Assembly: GCA_024278985.1 (NCBI GenBank)
Contig: JAJRSC010000021.1
Coordinates: forward strand, 1-43,765
DNA: 43,765 bases
Origin: an archaeon
GTDB taxonomy: Archaea; AGJL01; Methanococci; Methanococcales; Methanocaldococcaceae
Direction of reading: 5' to 3'
Positions within the stretch are counted from its first letter, which is position 1. Each line of letters opens with the position of its first letter. The position numbers and the translations under genes were made by a program. This document shows, one piece after another, positions 10,272 to 35,542 of the stretch. Below the pieces are notes generated by a model, which was not told where the DNA came from, did no database searches, and was given only the letters and a program-made list of their open reading frames with translations.

Positions 10272-10553
10272 TTATTTAAAGAGAGAATCTATAACTTCAT
10301 TATCAATATATAATTTAAACTTTTTTGTTATATAATATCTCTTAGCCCTACCTTCCTCTAAGATTGTTTCACTTTTTACTAAATTAGCATTTTCAAGTTT
10401 TTTCATATGAGCATATAAAACAGGCCTTGATAGTTTTAAATATTTTGATAAATCATAAATTGTCATAGGTTTTTTATTAAGAATAGATAAAATTTTAATT
10501 CTTGTAGGGTTTGATAATGCATCACATATTTTACATATCTCATCCACATCCAT
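10272..10553 (-). CDS. ArsR-type winged-helix transcriptional regulator
   Basis: A 93-residue winged helix-turn-helix protein of the ArsR superfamily. Residues 9-25 (CDALSNPTRIKILSIL) are the classic helix 1, DLSKYLKLSRPVLYAHMKKL is the helix-turn-helix, and GRAKRYYIT is the wing. Two cysteines in the first ten residues (ICKICDAL) could form part of a metal or redox sensor, but the usual ELCVCDL metal motif is missing. It lies four bases downstream of the small membrane protein gene and is divergent from the secreted-protein cluster. This makes it the best candidate to bind the tandem CATATGTAG repeats at 10969-10997. The target is inferred from position only. Confidence 0.82.
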   Translation of the reverse strand: MDVDEICKICDALSNPTRIKILSILNKKPMTIYDLSKYLKLSRPVLYAHMKKLENANLVKSETILEEGRAKRYYITKKFKLYIDNEVIDSLFK

Positions 10554-10557
10554 AAAC

Positions 10558-10779
10558 TCACTCTATTTCTTCCCATTTCTTCTCTAATTTTTTAACTGTT
10601 TCTTTAATTTCTTCAACATCTTTCTCTATTTTTATTAGTTTAACTTCATTTCTTGGTTTAAATATATTGTATAGAAGTAAAATAAGTATTAATATTAAAA
10701 GTATTATGATAACTATATCAGTCCAATGCCACATTACATTATTAGGAAAATAAGAATATTCATACCCTCTATAAGGCAT
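10558..10779 (-). CDS. Small membrane protein with cytoplasmic coiled coil
   Basis: A 73-residue protein of unknown function. A tyrosine-rich N-terminus (PYRGYEYSYFP) precedes one hydrophobic helix (about residues 20-42, rich in I and L). A charged heptad-like tail, KIEKDVEEIKETVKKLEKKW, follows and should form a coiled coil. By charge, the tail is cytoplasmic. AGGGG lies ahead of the ATG. It is first in the operon with the ArsR regulator four bases downstream. A membrane partner or sensor for that regulator is possible. I do not recognise a family. Confidence 0.68.
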   Translation of the reverse strand: MPYRGYEYSYFPNNVMWHWTDIVIIILLILILILLLYNIFKPRNEVKLIKIEKDVEEIKETVKKLEKKWEEIE

Positions 10780-11014
10780 TTTTAACCCCTCAAAAATTTT
10801 TATTTATCAATATAAATATTTGAATAAATTATTTTAAGATATTATATCTAATAAAAGGGACACAATAATTTTAGAGATACTTTATATATTAAAATAACTT
10901 ATATTAAAATTTTTAAATATAAAAATTTATATAATAGAAAAATTTATATATGGGTTAATAAAATATATCATATGTAGATAAAATACTACATATGTAGGTA
11001 AAAGGTGATAAAAT
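10780..11014. promoter_or_regulatory. Divergent promoter region with tandem CATATGTAG operator
   Basis: A 235-base region, extremely AT-rich, between the ArsR operon and the secreted-protein cluster. For the plus strand, TATA-like TTTATATA occurs near 10926-10934 and 10943-10950. CATATGTAG occurs at 10969-10977 and again at 10989-10997, exactly 20 bases apart. The second copy lies inside a perfect 12-bp palindrome CTACATATGTAG (10986-10997), and the left copy plus its reverse complement form an inverted repeat with an 8-base loop (10969-10994). This overlaps the expected transcription start. GGTGAT at 11004-11009 is the ribosome site for ATG 11015. Confidence 0.65.
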
Positions 11015-11284
11015 ATGAAGAAAGTTTTGGGAATATTAGGAATAATATTTCTCCTTGTAGGTGCAGTATTTGCATTTAATAATACTACATCATTTAATAC
11101 TACAGACAATGGAGTAGTATGTCCATGCTGTGGAAATAACTGTTTATGTAACAATTATGAAAATTGTCCATGCTCAGAAAACTGTATATGCGAAGATAAT
11201 TGCACATGTTTAAATAACTGCCACCAATATTGCCACAATCATGAATTTAGACATTGTTGGGGTTTTAACAGATGTCATAGTTAG
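11015..11284 (+). CDS. Secreted cysteine-rich, metallothionein-like protein
   Basis: An 89-residue preprotein. Residues 1-20 form a clear signal peptide (KK, then a hydrophobic core, ending AVFA). The roughly 69-residue mature part has 15 cysteines and five histidines. Four NCxC units occur nearly in tandem (NCLC, NCPC, NCIC, NCTC), the last three at a six-residue period separated by acidic pairs (SE, ED), with CPCC before and HCW...CHS after. This suggests binding of several metal ions or a Cys-liganded cluster outside the membrane; disulphides are the alternative. No family recognised. It is the first gene behind the tandem operator and is followed by a T8 run, so it may be made in excess over the downstream genes. 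Confidence 0.8.
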   Translation: MKKVLGILGIIFLLVGAVFAFNNTTSFNTTDNGVVCPCCGNNCLCNNYENCPCSENCICEDNCTCLNNCHQYCHNHEFRHCWGFNRCHS

Positions 11285-11307: not shown

Positions 11308-11315
11308 TTTTTTTT
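11308..11315 (+). terminator. T8 run, probable archaeal terminator
   Basis: Eight T residues 24 bases after the stop of the cysteine-rich gene, with no strong hairpin, as is usual for archaeal intrinsic termination. Partial termination here would separate expression of the small protein from the cluster that follows. Confidence 0.45.
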
Positions 11316-11354: not shown

Positions 11355-12917
11355 ATGATAAAGAAAATGATTTTATTCTTAGCATTATTAGTTCTACCCA
11401 TAGTTTCAGCAAATACAGTAGTATTAGTAAGTGATAACTTAGCAGATTATAATACTGCTTTAGATGTTGCAAATGTATTAAATGCAACTGTTATAACAAC
11501 AGAATGGGGAATATATAATGAAAGTTTAGTTAATACTATAATCTCCCTAAATCCAGATAAAGTTATAATCATTGGAGGTCCTTTAGCAGTAGTAGATAAT
11601 TATACAACAGCTTTAGAAAATGCTGGGATAAGTGTTGAAAGAATAGGGGGGCATGATAGATATCAAACCAATGCCATGGCACTTCTTCAATATAGAGAGC
11701 AATTTAGAGAAAAGTTTGGTAATAATTTATCTGCATGTGTATGTCATGGATTTGATGATATTGCTTTAAATGAATCCTTAAACTTAGTTAAAGAACATTA
11801 TATAACAGTCTTAACAAATGGTGTTAATTTAACTGTAAATGTCTCAAACTTAGGAGTTAAAAAAGTAGATGTTATTGTAAATCCTATATGTCCATTCTGT
11901 AACTATACAAAATTAATGCAAAGACTTAAAAGAGGAAATATTGTTGTTGAACAACTTGAAATTCCTCAAAATAAAATTAAATTAATGTTACAAAATAGAT
12001 TAAGAATATTAGAGAGAAGACTTATCAGATTAAAATTAATGGGTATTAATGATAGTGAATTAGAAAATAAAATTAAAGAAATTGAAGAGCTAATAAAACA
12101 AAATAAATATGAAGAAGCATACAAACTTATGATTCAATTAACAGACCAACAAAGAACTATGATAGTTTTACATTTCCATCCAATGGGTTATGGTAGAGCA
12201 ATGGGTATGAATAATGCTCCTCACATTTATCATCAAAATGCTAACAACTCTCAAATGATTAGAGGGCCAAAAGCTCCACATAGATATCAAAATGTTACCA
12301 ATTCACAAATGGGTAGAGGTAGAGTGTTTGTTGATAACAATGGAAATGTAAATGTTAGTTTAATGCATATGACTATTAATAACTTGCCAAAACAATCTAT
12401 AAGTGAAGAAGAAAAAGAGGGATTAATTGAAATGAGAGAAGAAGAAAAATTGGCAAGAGATGTTTATCTAACATTATACAATAAATGGAAATTACCAATA
12501 TTTAAAAACATTGCTGAAAGTGAACAAACACACACTGATTCCATCAAGTATCTTTTAAATAAATATAATATCTCTGACCCTGTTAAAAGTGATGAAGTTG
12601 GAAAATTCTCAAATCCAAAATATCAAGAATTGTATCAAAAATTAGTTGAGGAGGGTAATAAATCAGTTATTGATGCTTTAAAAGTTGGAGCTACTATTGA
12701 AGATTTAGATATAGCTGATTTACAATATTGGTTAAATAGAACAGACAATGAAGATATAAAACTTGTTTATGAAAACTTAATGAAAGGTTCAAGAAACCAT
12801 ATGAGAGCTTTCGTAAGTATGCTACAAAAGTATGGAGCCAATTACACTCCACAGTATATAAGTAAAGAAGAATATGAACAAATAATAAATAGCCCAATGG
12901 AAAGAGGTAGAAAATAA
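11355..12917 (+). CDS. Secreted cell-wall-binding protein with C-terminal ferritin-like DUF2202 domain
   Basis: 520 residues. A signal peptide (1-19, ending VSA) is followed by one cell-wall-binding repeat 2 domain (about 20-113) with IIIGGPLAVV and the hallmark RIGGHDRYQT. Next are CVCH (128-131) and CPFC (179-182, in a strand-CxxC-helix context like glutaredoxin). A coiled-coil region (205-255) leads to a linker rich in His, Met and Asn (273-325), in which APHxYxQN...NSQMxRG occurs twice. The C-terminal DUF2202 domain (about 350-510) is ferritin-like, with likely metal ligands in EEEKLARD (362-369), ESEQTH (388-393), E449, E473 and H482. An extracytoplasmic metal-dependent oxidase, reductase or store is likely; the substrate is unknown. 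GGTGAT lies six bases before the ATG. Confidence 0.82.
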   Translation: MIKKMILFLALLVLPIVSANTVVLVSDNLADYNTALDVANVLNATVITTEWGIYNESLVNTIISLNPDKVIIIGGPLAVVDNYTTALENAGISVERIGGHDRYQTNAMALLQYREQFREKFGNNLSACVCHGFDDIALNESLNLVKEHYITVLTNGVNLTVNVSNLGVKKVDVIVNPICPFCNYTKLMQRLKRGNIVVEQLEIPQNKIKLMLQNRLRILERRLIRLKLMGINDSELENKIKEIEELIKQNKYEEAYKLMIQLTDQQRTMIVLHFHPMGYGRAMGMNNAPHIYHQNANNSQMIRGPKAPHRYQNVTNSQMGRGRVFVDNNGNVNVSLMHMTINNLPKQSISEEEKEGLIEMREEEKLARDVYLTLYNKWKLPIFKNIAESEQTHTDSIKYLLNKYNISDPVKSDEVGKFSNPKYQELYQKLVEEGNKSVIDALKVGATIEDLDIADLQYWLNRTDNEDIKLVYENLMKGSRNHMRAFVSMLQKYGANYTPQYISKEEYEQIINSPMERGRK

Positions 12918-12930
12918 CGGTGAATGATTT

Positions 12931-13701
12931 ATGAGAAAATTTTTGGCTATCTTTTTATTTTTTTCTTTTTTAAGTTTATCTTTTGCTTGGAATGACTGTC
13001 CTTTTGGAGAAGTAAATTGTACATATCCAGGAAAATGTGGAAGATATATAGATACAAACCATAATGGTATCTGTGACCATAGTGAGCCAGCTCCAACAAC
13101 TAATAATATTAAACCAGTTGAAATAACAAATATAAATATTTCAAATCTATCAATAAAAGAATTTTGTTTAATGTATAACATTAATGTGAATATTTTTATT
13201 GATAAATTAAAGGAATTTTTAGAGAATAAACTAGGAATAGAAAATGTTATTGATATTAAGGGTAGTGAATTAAAAAAATTAACAATAAAAGAAGTATGTA
13301 AAATATATAATATCTCTCCAACTCTACTAATATCAAAATTAGGAGTTAATGTTGATGAAGACACCACATTTGAAGAATTAAAGGATAAATATGGAATAAC
13401 TCCAAAAAAAGCAAAAGAAATTATTGCTGAATGTATAAATGAAGAAAGATACTATAATAATGAATTAAATATTACTGAAAATACTAAGATAGGTTATATA
13501 ATTAAAACATATGATATAAATCCTGAAGATATAATAAACCTTGCTAAAGAATTGGGAGGAGTATACAATAATACTGAAACTTTAAATACAAATACTACAA
13601 ATACAAATAAAAATAATGAAAATATTATAGATAAAATATTATCCCTATTATTTACATATATTGATATAAAATCACTAATTCTTAAAATAATAGGAGGGTA
13701 A
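12931..13701 (+). CDS. Secreted EF-hand-like and helical-repeat protein paired with polyferredoxin
   Basis: 256 residues. A signal peptide ends near residue 19 (LSFA). A four-cysteine segment follows (C23, C30, C36, C48) with an EF-hand-like calcium loop DTNHNGICDHSE at 41-52. Four copies of a roughly 20-residue helical unit come next, near 74-92, 118-136, 146-165 and 186-206. Their pattern is T/S-I/F-x-E-x4-Y-x-I-N/S/T-P (for example TIKEVCKIYNISP). An Asn/Thr-rich stretch (212-230) leads to a hydrophobic end, probably a membrane anchor. From memory, similar Cys/EF-loop segments and repeats accompany NapH-type polyferredoxins in archaea. The next gene is one, seven bases away. Function is unknown. 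Confidence 0.75.
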   Translation: MRKFLAIFLFFSFLSLSFAWNDCPFGEVNCTYPGKCGRYIDTNHNGICDHSEPAPTTNNIKPVEITNINISNLSIKEFCLMYNINVNIFIDKLKEFLENKLGIENVIDIKGSELKKLTIKEVCKIYNISPTLLISKLGVNVDEDTTFEELKDKYGITPKKAKEIIAECINEERYYNNELNITENTKIGYIIKTYDINPEDIINLAKELGGVYNNTETLNTNTTNTNKNNENIIDKILSLLFTYIDIKSLILKIIGG

Positions 13702-13708
13702 GTAATTT

Positions 13709-14407
13709 ATGGATAAAATTCAAATTTTAAGAAAAATTTCTCAAGTATTCTTTTTTATTCGTTTTGTTTTTATTAGCTCCTTATGTTTATGTTTTTATGG
13801 TGTATTAGAGCAAATATTTATTAGTGGTTCAACTGCATTAATACAAAAAATTATTATTATTGCTATTATAACATTAATTTTTGGTAGATTATTCTGTGGA
13901 TTTGCCTGCCCTTTTGGTTTTTTACAAGAATTAGCTTATAAAATAAAAAAAAGAAAAAAACTTCCTAAAATTAATAGAGAAATTCATAATAAATTAATAT
14001 ATTTAAAATATTTTGTTATGGTTGGTTTTTTATTGTTGGCTTATTACTTATCAACATATGCATTTTGTAATATCTGTCCTATTGGTTTTGTATCAAGATT
14101 ATCAGGAACTTTATTAGCTTTATTTTTAGCTATTTTATTTATAGTAATATCCTACTTTATTCCAAGGTTTTTCTGTAAATATATATGTCCATTAGGTGCA
14201 TTTTTATCTATTTTCTCAATATACCCAATATTTCAATTAAAATTAAATAACAACTGTGTTAAATGTAGATTATGTGAGTTTAAATGTCCTATGCAAATAG
14301 AAATTACTAAAAATATTACACAAAGAGAATGTATAAGATGCTTTGAATGTATGTCTGCTTGTAGAAAAGGAGGATTATCATTTAAACCATTTTTTTTTAG
14401 GAGATGA
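13709..14407 (+). CDS. Membrane-bound polyferredoxin, NapH/NosR/YccM-like
   Basis: 232 residues with about four membrane helices (14-34, 43-60, 100-118, 133-152). Three CxxxCP or CxxCP motifs lie at membrane edges (C63/C67 in CGFACPFG, C120/C123, C156/C160), as in NapH, NosR and CcoG proteins. Two cytoplasmic-type [4Fe-4S] sites are near the C-terminus: CVKCRLCEFKCP (183-194) and CIRCFECMSACRKGG (208-222). Such proteins move electrons across the membrane to a periplasmic enzyme. Here the natural partner is one of the secreted products of the same operon. GGAGGG precedes the ATG. It stands seven bases after the EF-hand-like gene. Confidence 0.88.
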   Translation: MDKIQILRKISQVFFFIRFVFISSLCLCFYGVLEQIFISGSTALIQKIIIIAIITLIFGRLFCGFACPFGFLQELAYKIKKRKKLPKINREIHNKLIYLKYFVMVGFLLLAYYLSTYAFCNICPIGFVSRLSGTLLALFLAILFIVISYFIPRFFCKYICPLGAFLSIFSIYPIFQLKLNNNCVKCRLCEFKCPMQIEITKNITQRECIRCFECMSACRKGGLSFKPFFFRR

Positions 14408-14412
14408 AAAAA

Positions 14413-14982
14413 ATGAAAATAAAAATAATTAGATTATCCCCTGGAAAATTTTTATTATTTTTTATTTTATTTATTTTAATTATGGGCCTATTATTTTTCT
14501 TATTATTTCCTCTCTTTTTATTATTGTTAATTATGGGAGTAATATTTATTATTTATCTCAAATTCAAAAAAAGATTAAAAGATATATGGTTAAACTTTAA
14601 GAAAAAAAGGATTAAAATTGAATATAAAGATAACTCAGGAAAAATAGATATTCATTTTCCAAAAAAGATACCTATTGAAGGAGAAAATGAAAATAAAAAA
14701 TATAATAATATAACTGATCCATTTGTCATTTATTTAAAAAAACTTGGTGCTAAAATTGATGAAAAAGGTAATATATATTTTAGAGGGTATAAAGTATATC
14801 CTATATTTAAAAAATCTTATCCTATAAATGAGATAATCTCATTGGACTATCCTGATGATATAGATGCAGTTGTTTTAGGTTTAAAAGGAGAACCATATGA
14901 ACCAAAGTTTTTATTTTTAATACCTAAAGAGAACTTAAAAAGAAGAATGAAATTAGATGAAATTAAAAGATTTATAATTTAA
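14413..14982 (+). CDS. Membrane protein of unknown function, last gene of redox cluster
   Basis: About 189 residues. Two back-to-back hydrophobic segments (about residues 10-50, almost all I, L, F and G) form a hairpin. A basic stretch (KKRLKDIW, KKKRIKIEY) follows, which by the positive-inside rule puts the soluble 130-residue domain in the cytoplasm. That domain is charged and has no recognisable motif. The frame opens at ATG 14404, but AGGAG directly abuts that codon. ATG 14413 has proper spacing of nine bases, so I use it. It immediately follows the polyferredoxin gene and overlaps the end of serA on the other strand by 11 bases. Confidence 0.68.
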   Translation: MKIKIIRLSPGKFLLFFILFILIMGLLFFLLFPLFLLLLIMGVIFIIYLKFKKRLKDIWLNFKKKRIKIEYKDNSGKIDIHFPKKIPIEGENENKKYNNITDPFVIYLKKLGAKIDEKGNIYFRGYKVYPIFKKSYPINEIISLDYPDDIDAVVLGLKGEPYEPKFLFLIPKENLKRRMKLDEIKRFII

Positions 14983-35143: not shown

Positions 35144-35542
35144 ATGATTGATTATAGTAAGTGTATTAAATGTAAAAATTGCATTGAGGCATGTCCAAAG
35201 AATGCAATTATTTTTTTAGATATTCCTATAAAATGTTTTCATTGTGAAAATGCACCTTGTATAAAGGTTTGTCCAGTTGAAGATATTTTTAGGGAAAATA
35301 ACAATATAATTATAGATGAAAATATTTGTATAGGATGTGGTTTATGCCTATCTGTTTGTCCATTTGGAGCTATAAAAATAGATAAAGTGGCTATAAAGTG
35401 TGATAACTGTTATAAATATAATAAAAAATACTGTATTGAAGCATGTCCTACTGGAGCAATTATAGAAGAAATAAATGAAATATTTGAGGAGAAGTATAAC
35501 AATTTTAAAAATAAAATTAAAAAAATTTATAAATATTTGTAA
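35144..35542 (+). CDS. porF: Polyferredoxin PorF
   Basis: 132 residues with four cysteine groups: [50 protein letters not shown] and [21 protein letters not shown]. It is a paralogue of PorE with the same cluster order, from a duplication. It is the last gene of the pyruvate oxidoreductase locus and lies 58 bases after porE. The C-terminal 20 residues are lysine-rich with no motif. It is probably an electron carrier for the enzyme. Confidence 0.87.

Follow-up and report, generated by a model that had tools for sequence, protein, structure and literature searches.

A predicted exported cysteine-rich protein encoded first in an operator-headed surface gene set of Methanocaldococcus-type archaea

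The window, a stretch of 43,765 nucleotides from a genome of a Methanocaldococcus-type genus (G000; 1.1 Mb, 30 contigs, 86% complete), encodes at 11015-11284 on the forward strand a small protein with a dense array of cysteines. A conserved inverted repeat lies just upstream of the gene, and genes for surface and iron-sulfur proteins follow it. In other genomes the same first position is repeatedly taken by a small exported protein, usually rich in cysteine. Our best account, which we hold tentatively, is that the product is an exported Cys/His-rich metal-thiolate protein serving an ArsR-controlled extracytoplasmic operon for iron or electron transfer. The small Cys-array protein probably holds metals outside the cell, and the conserved, repressor-controlled surface gene set that it heads has hardly been studied so far. 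The analysis gives a concrete regulon (operator, regulator and target genes, in genomes like that of M. jannaschii) to a widely kept and unexplained set of genes around MJ0754. If the Cys array does bind metal extracellularly, archaea would have an exported protein of metallothionein-like character, which would hint at the way in which iron or electrons are handled at the methanogen surface.

The cysteine-rich protein

The reading frame at 11015-11284 is intact from ATG to TAG (89 aa), and an AGGTGAT ribosome-binding sequence ends 5 bases upstream of the ATG. A first-pass annotation, made from the DNA sequence, had proposed a gene here, and the gene is real. Residues 1-20 (11015-11074) form a signal peptide-like segment with a hydrophobic peak of 2.98, and the structure model places a helix at residues 2-22. 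From this hydrophobic N-terminus and the model helix we infer that the protein is exported, in agreement with the secretion proposed earlier. The cleavage site was placed by eye after residue 20, between VFA and FNN. The mature part then has 69 residues, of which 15 are Cys (21.7%, as against the "about 22%" of the first-pass annotation), 15 are Asn and five are His. It contains five CxC motifs and one CC.

Most of the cysteines lie in a patterned array at 11138-11233, which reads NCLC, NCPC, NCIC, NCTC and then NCHQYC. The four NCxC units start at mature positions 22, 30, 36 and 42, and the fifth NC is at position 48, another six residues on. When the mature part is shuffled 100,000 times, at least four NCxC units turn up in 224 shuffles and four NC in a row at a six-residue period in 18, so the pattern is above chance for this composition. 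The units claimed earlier are therefore present, but their spacing is 8, 6 and 6 rather than a constant six. The acidic pairs that were said to separate them are found in one place only, the linkers being NNYE, SE, ED and LN. At the DNA level the units share 9-13 of 18 bases, and their Asn and Cys codons vary synonymously. This rules out a fresh tandem repeat in the DNA as the source of the array, and indicates a pattern kept in the protein.

The array runs into a Cys/His tail, NCHQYCHNHEFRHCWGFNRCHS (11216-11281), which lies within the stretch that aligns with the related protein of genome G010. Binding of haem c through CXXCH is ruled out, as the protein reads CHQYCH, that is CX3CH. The G010 protein has one CQYCH (CXXCH) at this place. 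It is probably not a haem site, as Methanococcales are not known to have cytochromes. The structure model of the window protein has a mean pLDDT of 47.8 and no confident fold past the signal helix; any peptide that has few homologues would be expected to give the same.

A run of eight T at 11308-11315 had been read as a mark of strong expression. The run is present, but it is one of 19 runs of at least eight T or A in the window and cannot be taken as a special terminator. In most relatives the small gene is closely spaced with the next gene, which suggests co-transcription and not a separate strong transcript. Among the ORFs of 60-160 aa that the window contains, only one more has at least 8% Cys; it encodes a polyferredoxin-like protein of 132 aa with 16 Cys at 35144-35542.

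Relatives of the protein

The protein matches no family in Pfam or NCBIfam, and at E up to 1 neither database gives a metallothionein model. A PDB sequence search gives no match at E up to 10, and a PHROGs search gives none either. In a direct homologue search of the genome collection, none of 155 pattern stretches was confirmed. A protein search of 61 genomes returned matches at E up to 1 in 18, mostly by chance. One of them, in G016, adjoins the CWB2 gene of the module described below; another, in G019, falls inside that genome's gene for the secreted CDHSEP protein.

Two relatives are convincing. The G016 protein (L059:6018-6302) has 8 Cys, and the G010 protein (L060:4249-4575) has 14. The latter was found through gene order, its true place having been missed by the 61-genome search. 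The alignment score with G010 is reached by 3 of 2000 shuffles of the mature part of the window protein (1 of 2000 with Cys fixed), and that with G016 by 1 of 2000 in either case. Both genes are headed by the operator; the one in G010 is followed directly by the CDHSEP gene, with no CWB2 gene. When the order's 36 genomes are searched with a model built from the three sequences, those three alone have significant E values, so the family that can be aligned is a narrow one. The first-pass annotation had named a lack of homologues with conserved NCxC spacing as a finding that would count against it. This applies in part: homologues exist in the order, but neither keeps the spacing, and they have two (G010) and no (G016) CxC motifs against five in the window protein.

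Metallothioneins contain about 15-30% Cys with CxC and CC motifs, and in composition the window protein resembles them. They are cytosolic, however, whereas the N-terminus of the window protein looks like a signal peptide in its hydrophobicity and in the helix of the model. The earlier term "metallothionein-like" thus fits the composition and not family membership, because no family model matches and the relatives lack the NCxC spacing.

A shared position at the head of the operon

A small exported protein, usually Cys-rich, is repeatedly encoded first in the operon in Methanocaldococcus-type genomes and in one metagenome-assembled Thermococcus genome (MAG). The recurrent order is this slot protein, a surface-type protein (often with CPFC), a DUF2202 protein of the MJ0754 family, a secreted protein with a C-YPG-C...CDHSEP motif, and a NapH-like protein. 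The DUF2202 protein of G007 matches the MJ0754 crystal sequence by eye, and G007 appears from sequence to be M. jannaschii. In the module loci read, the small slot gene is present in 14 of the 36 genomes of the order.

The slot proteins take several forms. One form, 124-142 aa long, combines a conserved domain with an end that is Cys-rich in most cases (G001, G003, G007, G011 and G012; G028 with one Cys). Tyr-rich proteins of 95 aa end in CPCCGYCRCGCC (G009 and G013; G008 with one Cys fewer). Cys-dense proteins are those of the window (15 Cys), G010 and G016. G031 has a protein of 136 aa with 11 Cys ahead of the CDHSEP gene, and the Thermococcus MAG (contig L145) and G017 have proteins of 155-157 aa. 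At least three Cys together with a CC or CxC are found in 14 of the 15 slot proteins. Of the control ORFs of 80-160 aa, 3 of 144 do so, and of the exported-like controls 0 of 10; the controls were drawn from loci chosen for the module, and one of the three positives itself belongs to the module, being a small membrane ORF with a wrong start. The slot proteins with three Cys or fewer are those of G011 (3), the Thermococcus MAG (3) and G028 (1).

By hand count, the mature part has an odd number of Cys in 10 of the 15 slot proteins, and the spacing of the cysteines varies between them, which argues against a fixed set of disulphides. A peptide with fixed disulphides should have an even number of Cys at conserved spacing; the window protein has 15. 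With this odd number not all can be in intramolecular disulphides; the first-pass annotation had named all cysteines in disulphides, with no metal bound, as a finding that would count against it. The odd number, the CC and CxC motifs and the loose spacing together speak against a fixed disulphide scaffold.

The window protein does not align convincingly with most other slot forms. Its scores are reached by 460 (G009), 742 (G031), 1822 (G007) and 96 (Thermococcus) of 2000 shuffles. The G007 and Thermococcus forms do match each other, with 0 of 2000 shuffles reaching their score. The slot is therefore shared by position and not by one proven family.

Operator and promoter

A putative TATA-like box, TTTATATA, lies at 10943-10950 on the forward strand, and a similar box is found in a similar place relative to the operator in relatives. 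The predicted operator is the inverted repeat TATGTAG-N8-CTACATA at 10971-10992 on the same strand, extended to CATATGTAG...CTACATATG at 10969-10994. It matches exactly the pattern shared upstream of related genes, TRTGTAG-N8-(A/C)TACAYA, which lies about 20 bases past a TATA-like box, and it stands 22 bases before the ATG. Judged from its sequence position, it would sit over the presumed transcription start. The regulated promoter proposed in the first-pass annotation is supported by this conserved repeat. The distance from operator to start codon is 21-39 bases for slot genes, 68-74 where the operon starts with CWB2, and 83-100 before the ArsR operon.

We scanned the 36 genomes of the order with TRTGTAGNNAAANNNNTACAYA at up to one mismatch and obtained 32 matches, 15 of them exact; a reversed control pattern gave 19 matches at the same tolerance, a total in which exact matches were not split out. 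Ten exact operators precede a slot gene, two the CWB2 gene of the module (G015, G028), two the membrane-protein/ArsR operon (G007, G012), and one is in G024. All 15 across the 36 genomes thus lie at the module, at the ArsR operon or at one apparent relic, and five of them (G011, G015, two in G028, and G024) are independent of the derivation of the pattern. Among the one-mismatch operators, 2 of 17 are at the module (G001, G016). At up to three mismatches the window has no more matches than chance would give (4 against 4.69 expected). Only exact matches are therefore relied on.

The slot gene of G031 has no operator match. The exact operator of G024 (L177, 5017-5038) adjoins the gene that in G016 stands ahead of the operon, but G024 lacks the operon here and has a transposase-like ORF in its place. 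This operator is likely what is left of an operon since lost. The operator repeat is also found at the head of DUF2202-module loci in two Thermococcus-like genomes. On L145 of the Thermococcus MAG it precedes the slot gene as a perfect repeat, TATGTAATAATAAAATTACATA. G040 has a single exact match to TATGTA-N10-TACAYA, just upstream of a DUF2202 gene; this looser pattern has other matches too in Thermococcus-type genomes.

The ArsR-family regulator

Two genes are divergent from the slot operon. On the reverse strand, 10272-10553 encodes an ArsR-family winged-helix protein of 93 aa (Pfam HTH_5, E 2e-15), the presumed repressor of the operon. It is adjoined, in the loci read, by a gene for a one-helix membrane protein of 73 aa with a coiled-coil tail (10558-10779, reverse strand in the window). 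The membrane protein is found in 17 of the 36 genomes of the order, counting a weak match in G035 that holds a stop. The ArsR operon carries the same operator in G007 and G012, and in G028 the ArsR gene follows the operator-headed slot gene. The ArsR-family protein is the obvious candidate to bind the repeat at 10971-10992.

In an alignment of 18 sequences (17 orthologues) the recognition helix of the regulator is nearly invariant. The 18 sequences have no conserved Cys and a single conserved His, which lies inside the DNA-recognition helix, and no canonical metal site is visible. Against the NCBIfam metalloregulator model the window protein scores 49.5, under the cut-off of 55. The nearest solved relative is the ArsR-family structure 2p4w, which we take to be the heat-shock regulator Phr. 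As the regulator lacks conserved Cys, the signal for the operon need not be a metal, and the metal-induced expression that had been suggested for the window gene is not indicated.

Downstream genes

The CWB2, DUF2202, CDHSEP and NapH-like coding regions all lie downstream of 11015-11284 on the same strand. An exported protein of 520 aa (11355-12917) fuses a CWB2-type (S-layer/cell-wall-binding) part with a ferritin-like DUF2202 domain. The C-terminal DUF2202 part resembles MJ0754 (PDB entries 3q4n, 3q4o, 3q4q and 3q4r, one MJ0754 entry being titled 'with Zn2+') both in sequence (E 4e-93) and in fold (Z 29.1, 0.7 Å over 175 residues, 81% identity). Next after MJ0754 come bacterioferritins at Z about 15-16. 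Fusion of the domain to CWB2 is seen in the window and in G009; most of the relatives read have a separate DUF2202 gene, often lipoprotein-like. Structures that resemble the CWB2 part at Z 13-15 are Cwp6 and S-layer entries (e.g. 5j72, Z 14.7); among the matches listed, most of which belong to the DUF2202 half, this half has CWB2/S-layer entries only. The CWB2 domain contains a CPFC motif (residues 179-182, 11889-11900), located in a loop that joins strand 170-175 to helix 184-193.

An exported protein of 256 aa with the motif C-YPG-C...IDTNxxGICDHSEP follows at 12931-13701; no Pfam family matches it above its cut-off. Members of this helical-repeat, exported family are found in 24 of the 36 genomes of the order, and their genes adjoin NapH-like genes in most loci read. 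The NapH-like membrane 4Fe-4S protein is encoded at 13709-14407 (Pfam Fer4_5, E 2.2e-24); its match to NCBIfam TIGR02163 (E 1.6e-24, 86.8 bits) is under the cut-off of 213. A membrane protein of 192 aa (14404-14982), whose gene overlaps the NapH-like gene, is a possible final member of the operon. Homologues of it occur near some NapH loci in the other orientation.

Possible functions

In the proposed mechanism, the divergently encoded ArsR-family repressor would bind 10971-10992 over the presumed start and leave when its signal appears. The operon would then be expressed for extracytoplasmic handling of iron and electrons, with the Cys-rich gene first. The Cys-rich protein would bind metal ions outside the membrane as thiolate, and probably also imidazole, complexes. 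It may buffer the metal (Fe2+, Zn2+ or Cu+) or pass it to its operon partners: the surface-anchored CWB2 protein with CPFC, the ferritin-like DUF2202 domain, the secreted four-Cys protein and the NapH-like iron-sulfur membrane protein. Against this metal-thiolate reading count the lack of conservation of the NCxC array, the lack of a metallothionein family match and the lack of conserved Cys in the regulator. Its main rival is a thiol-redox role together with the CPFC protein, which we consider possible if rather unlikely. Here the Cys array would serve as a store of electrons or of disulphide/persulphide, in exchange with the CPFC of the neighboring surface protein, its redox state would be set via the secreted four-Cys and NapH-like proteins, and metal binding would be incidental. 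The CWB2 protein could then be a surface thiol oxidoreductase on a non-thioredoxin fold, as the model makes possible: CPFC lies where thiol active sites usually do, in a strand-helix loop modeled with high confidence (pLDDT about 92). In Methanocaldococcus-type loci CPFC tracks the presence of the small Cys protein. In ten loci the CWB2 gene either comes next after a small Cys gene or is separated from it by a single small membrane gene; these read CPFC in eight, CQFC in one and SPFC in one (the segments of G009 and G010 were read from the CWB2 alignment), while five CWB2 proteins without such a neighbor (G002, G015, G023, G024, G028) have no CxxC at that site. This covariation, however, is confounded by the shared ancestry of the loci. 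The Thermococcus-type copies have a small Cys protein with no CPFC found, the domain folds among the matches listed as CWB2/S-layer and not as thioredoxin, and metal-thiolate proteins are the more typical place for very dense arrays of CxC.

That the protein is a structural or protective surface peptide, forming a disulphide-crosslinked coat on the S-layer with no specific metal or redox job, seems quite unlikely to us. Its gene adjoins that of a CWB2-type surface protein, its N-terminus is signal-like, and N-glycosylation sequons (NNT and NTT) are seen in its sequence close to the mature N-terminus, all of which would suit a coat. The odd number of Cys and their unconserved spacing among relatives do not suit it, and the operator and the neighboring genes point to a regulated system of ferritin-like and iron-sulfur proteins. 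Still more improbable is a metallothionein in the strict sense, conferring metal resistance and induced by Cu, Zn, Cd or As, which we rank as less likely than either the metal-thiolate or the thiol-redox reading. The composition and the nominal ArsR family of the regulator would agree with it; the lack of conserved Cys and the sub-threshold metalloregulator score of that regulator, the predicted export and the absence of a metallothionein model match would not. Nor was an efflux pump or reductase recognised in the window operon from the ORF list and Pfam. A bolder form of the metal-thiolate reading is speculative, and we think it unlikely to hold in full. In it, an ancient ArsR-controlled surface redox operon common to Methanococcales and Thermococcales would have a slot whose occupants, exported Cys/His proteins, turn over too fast to be aligned any longer, and the window copy with its regular NCxC array would be an extracytoplasmic metallothionein-like shuttle that loads the neighboring ferritin-like protein from outside the methanogen cell.

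Relation to known systems

Bacterial metallothioneins of the SmtA/NmtA type are, like the window protein, small and Cys-rich, with CxC motifs and some His. An ArsR-family regulator, AzuR, is described near NmtA of Anabaena (PMC8790569), and an ArsR-family gene is near the window gene too. In contrast to that type, the window protein is predicted to be exported and not cytosolic, it has no profile match, and its regulator lacks conserved Cys. The literature retrieved on archaeal or exported metallothioneins contains, in the portions available, no archaeal case among the matches listed.

Makarova and colleagues proposed iron-dependent electron transfer for neighborhoods of DUF4405, ferritin-like and ArsR genes (PMC5898192, section 3.6). 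The section covers the Thermococcus neighborhood CL1_0239-CL1_0246 with DUF4405, ferritin-like (arCOG03957), ArsR (arCOG01679) and secreted proteins. It describes neither the Cys-rich protein nor the operator. A search by the arCOG numbers of the module found this paper only; apart from it, searches on the module or on NapH in Methanocaldococcus returned nothing on this operon among the matches listed, and a search on MJ0754 and DUF2202 found no papers. The ferritin-like/ArsR/secreted-protein neighborhood is already partly described for Thermococci. What appears to be new, within the literature searched, is the NCxC protein together with the Cys-rich slot and the operator that the loci share.

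Contig L145 of the Thermococcus MAG carries a matching gene set including ArsR, with the operator present, and by gene content would correspond to CL1_0239-0246. Like this neighborhood, the window has genes for ferritin-like, ArsR and secreted proteins. It differs in having a NapH-like protein, with no DUF4405 cytochrome b561-like protein seen of the kind present in Thermococcus-type operons. The secreted protein of the window is also different, a short Cys array without the domain common to the Thermococcus and G007 forms. G017, a member of another family of the Methanococcales, has a Thermococcus-type copy (L187, 4566-7416) with a small Cys protein, DUF4405 proteins and CWB2, which suggests transfer between the orders.
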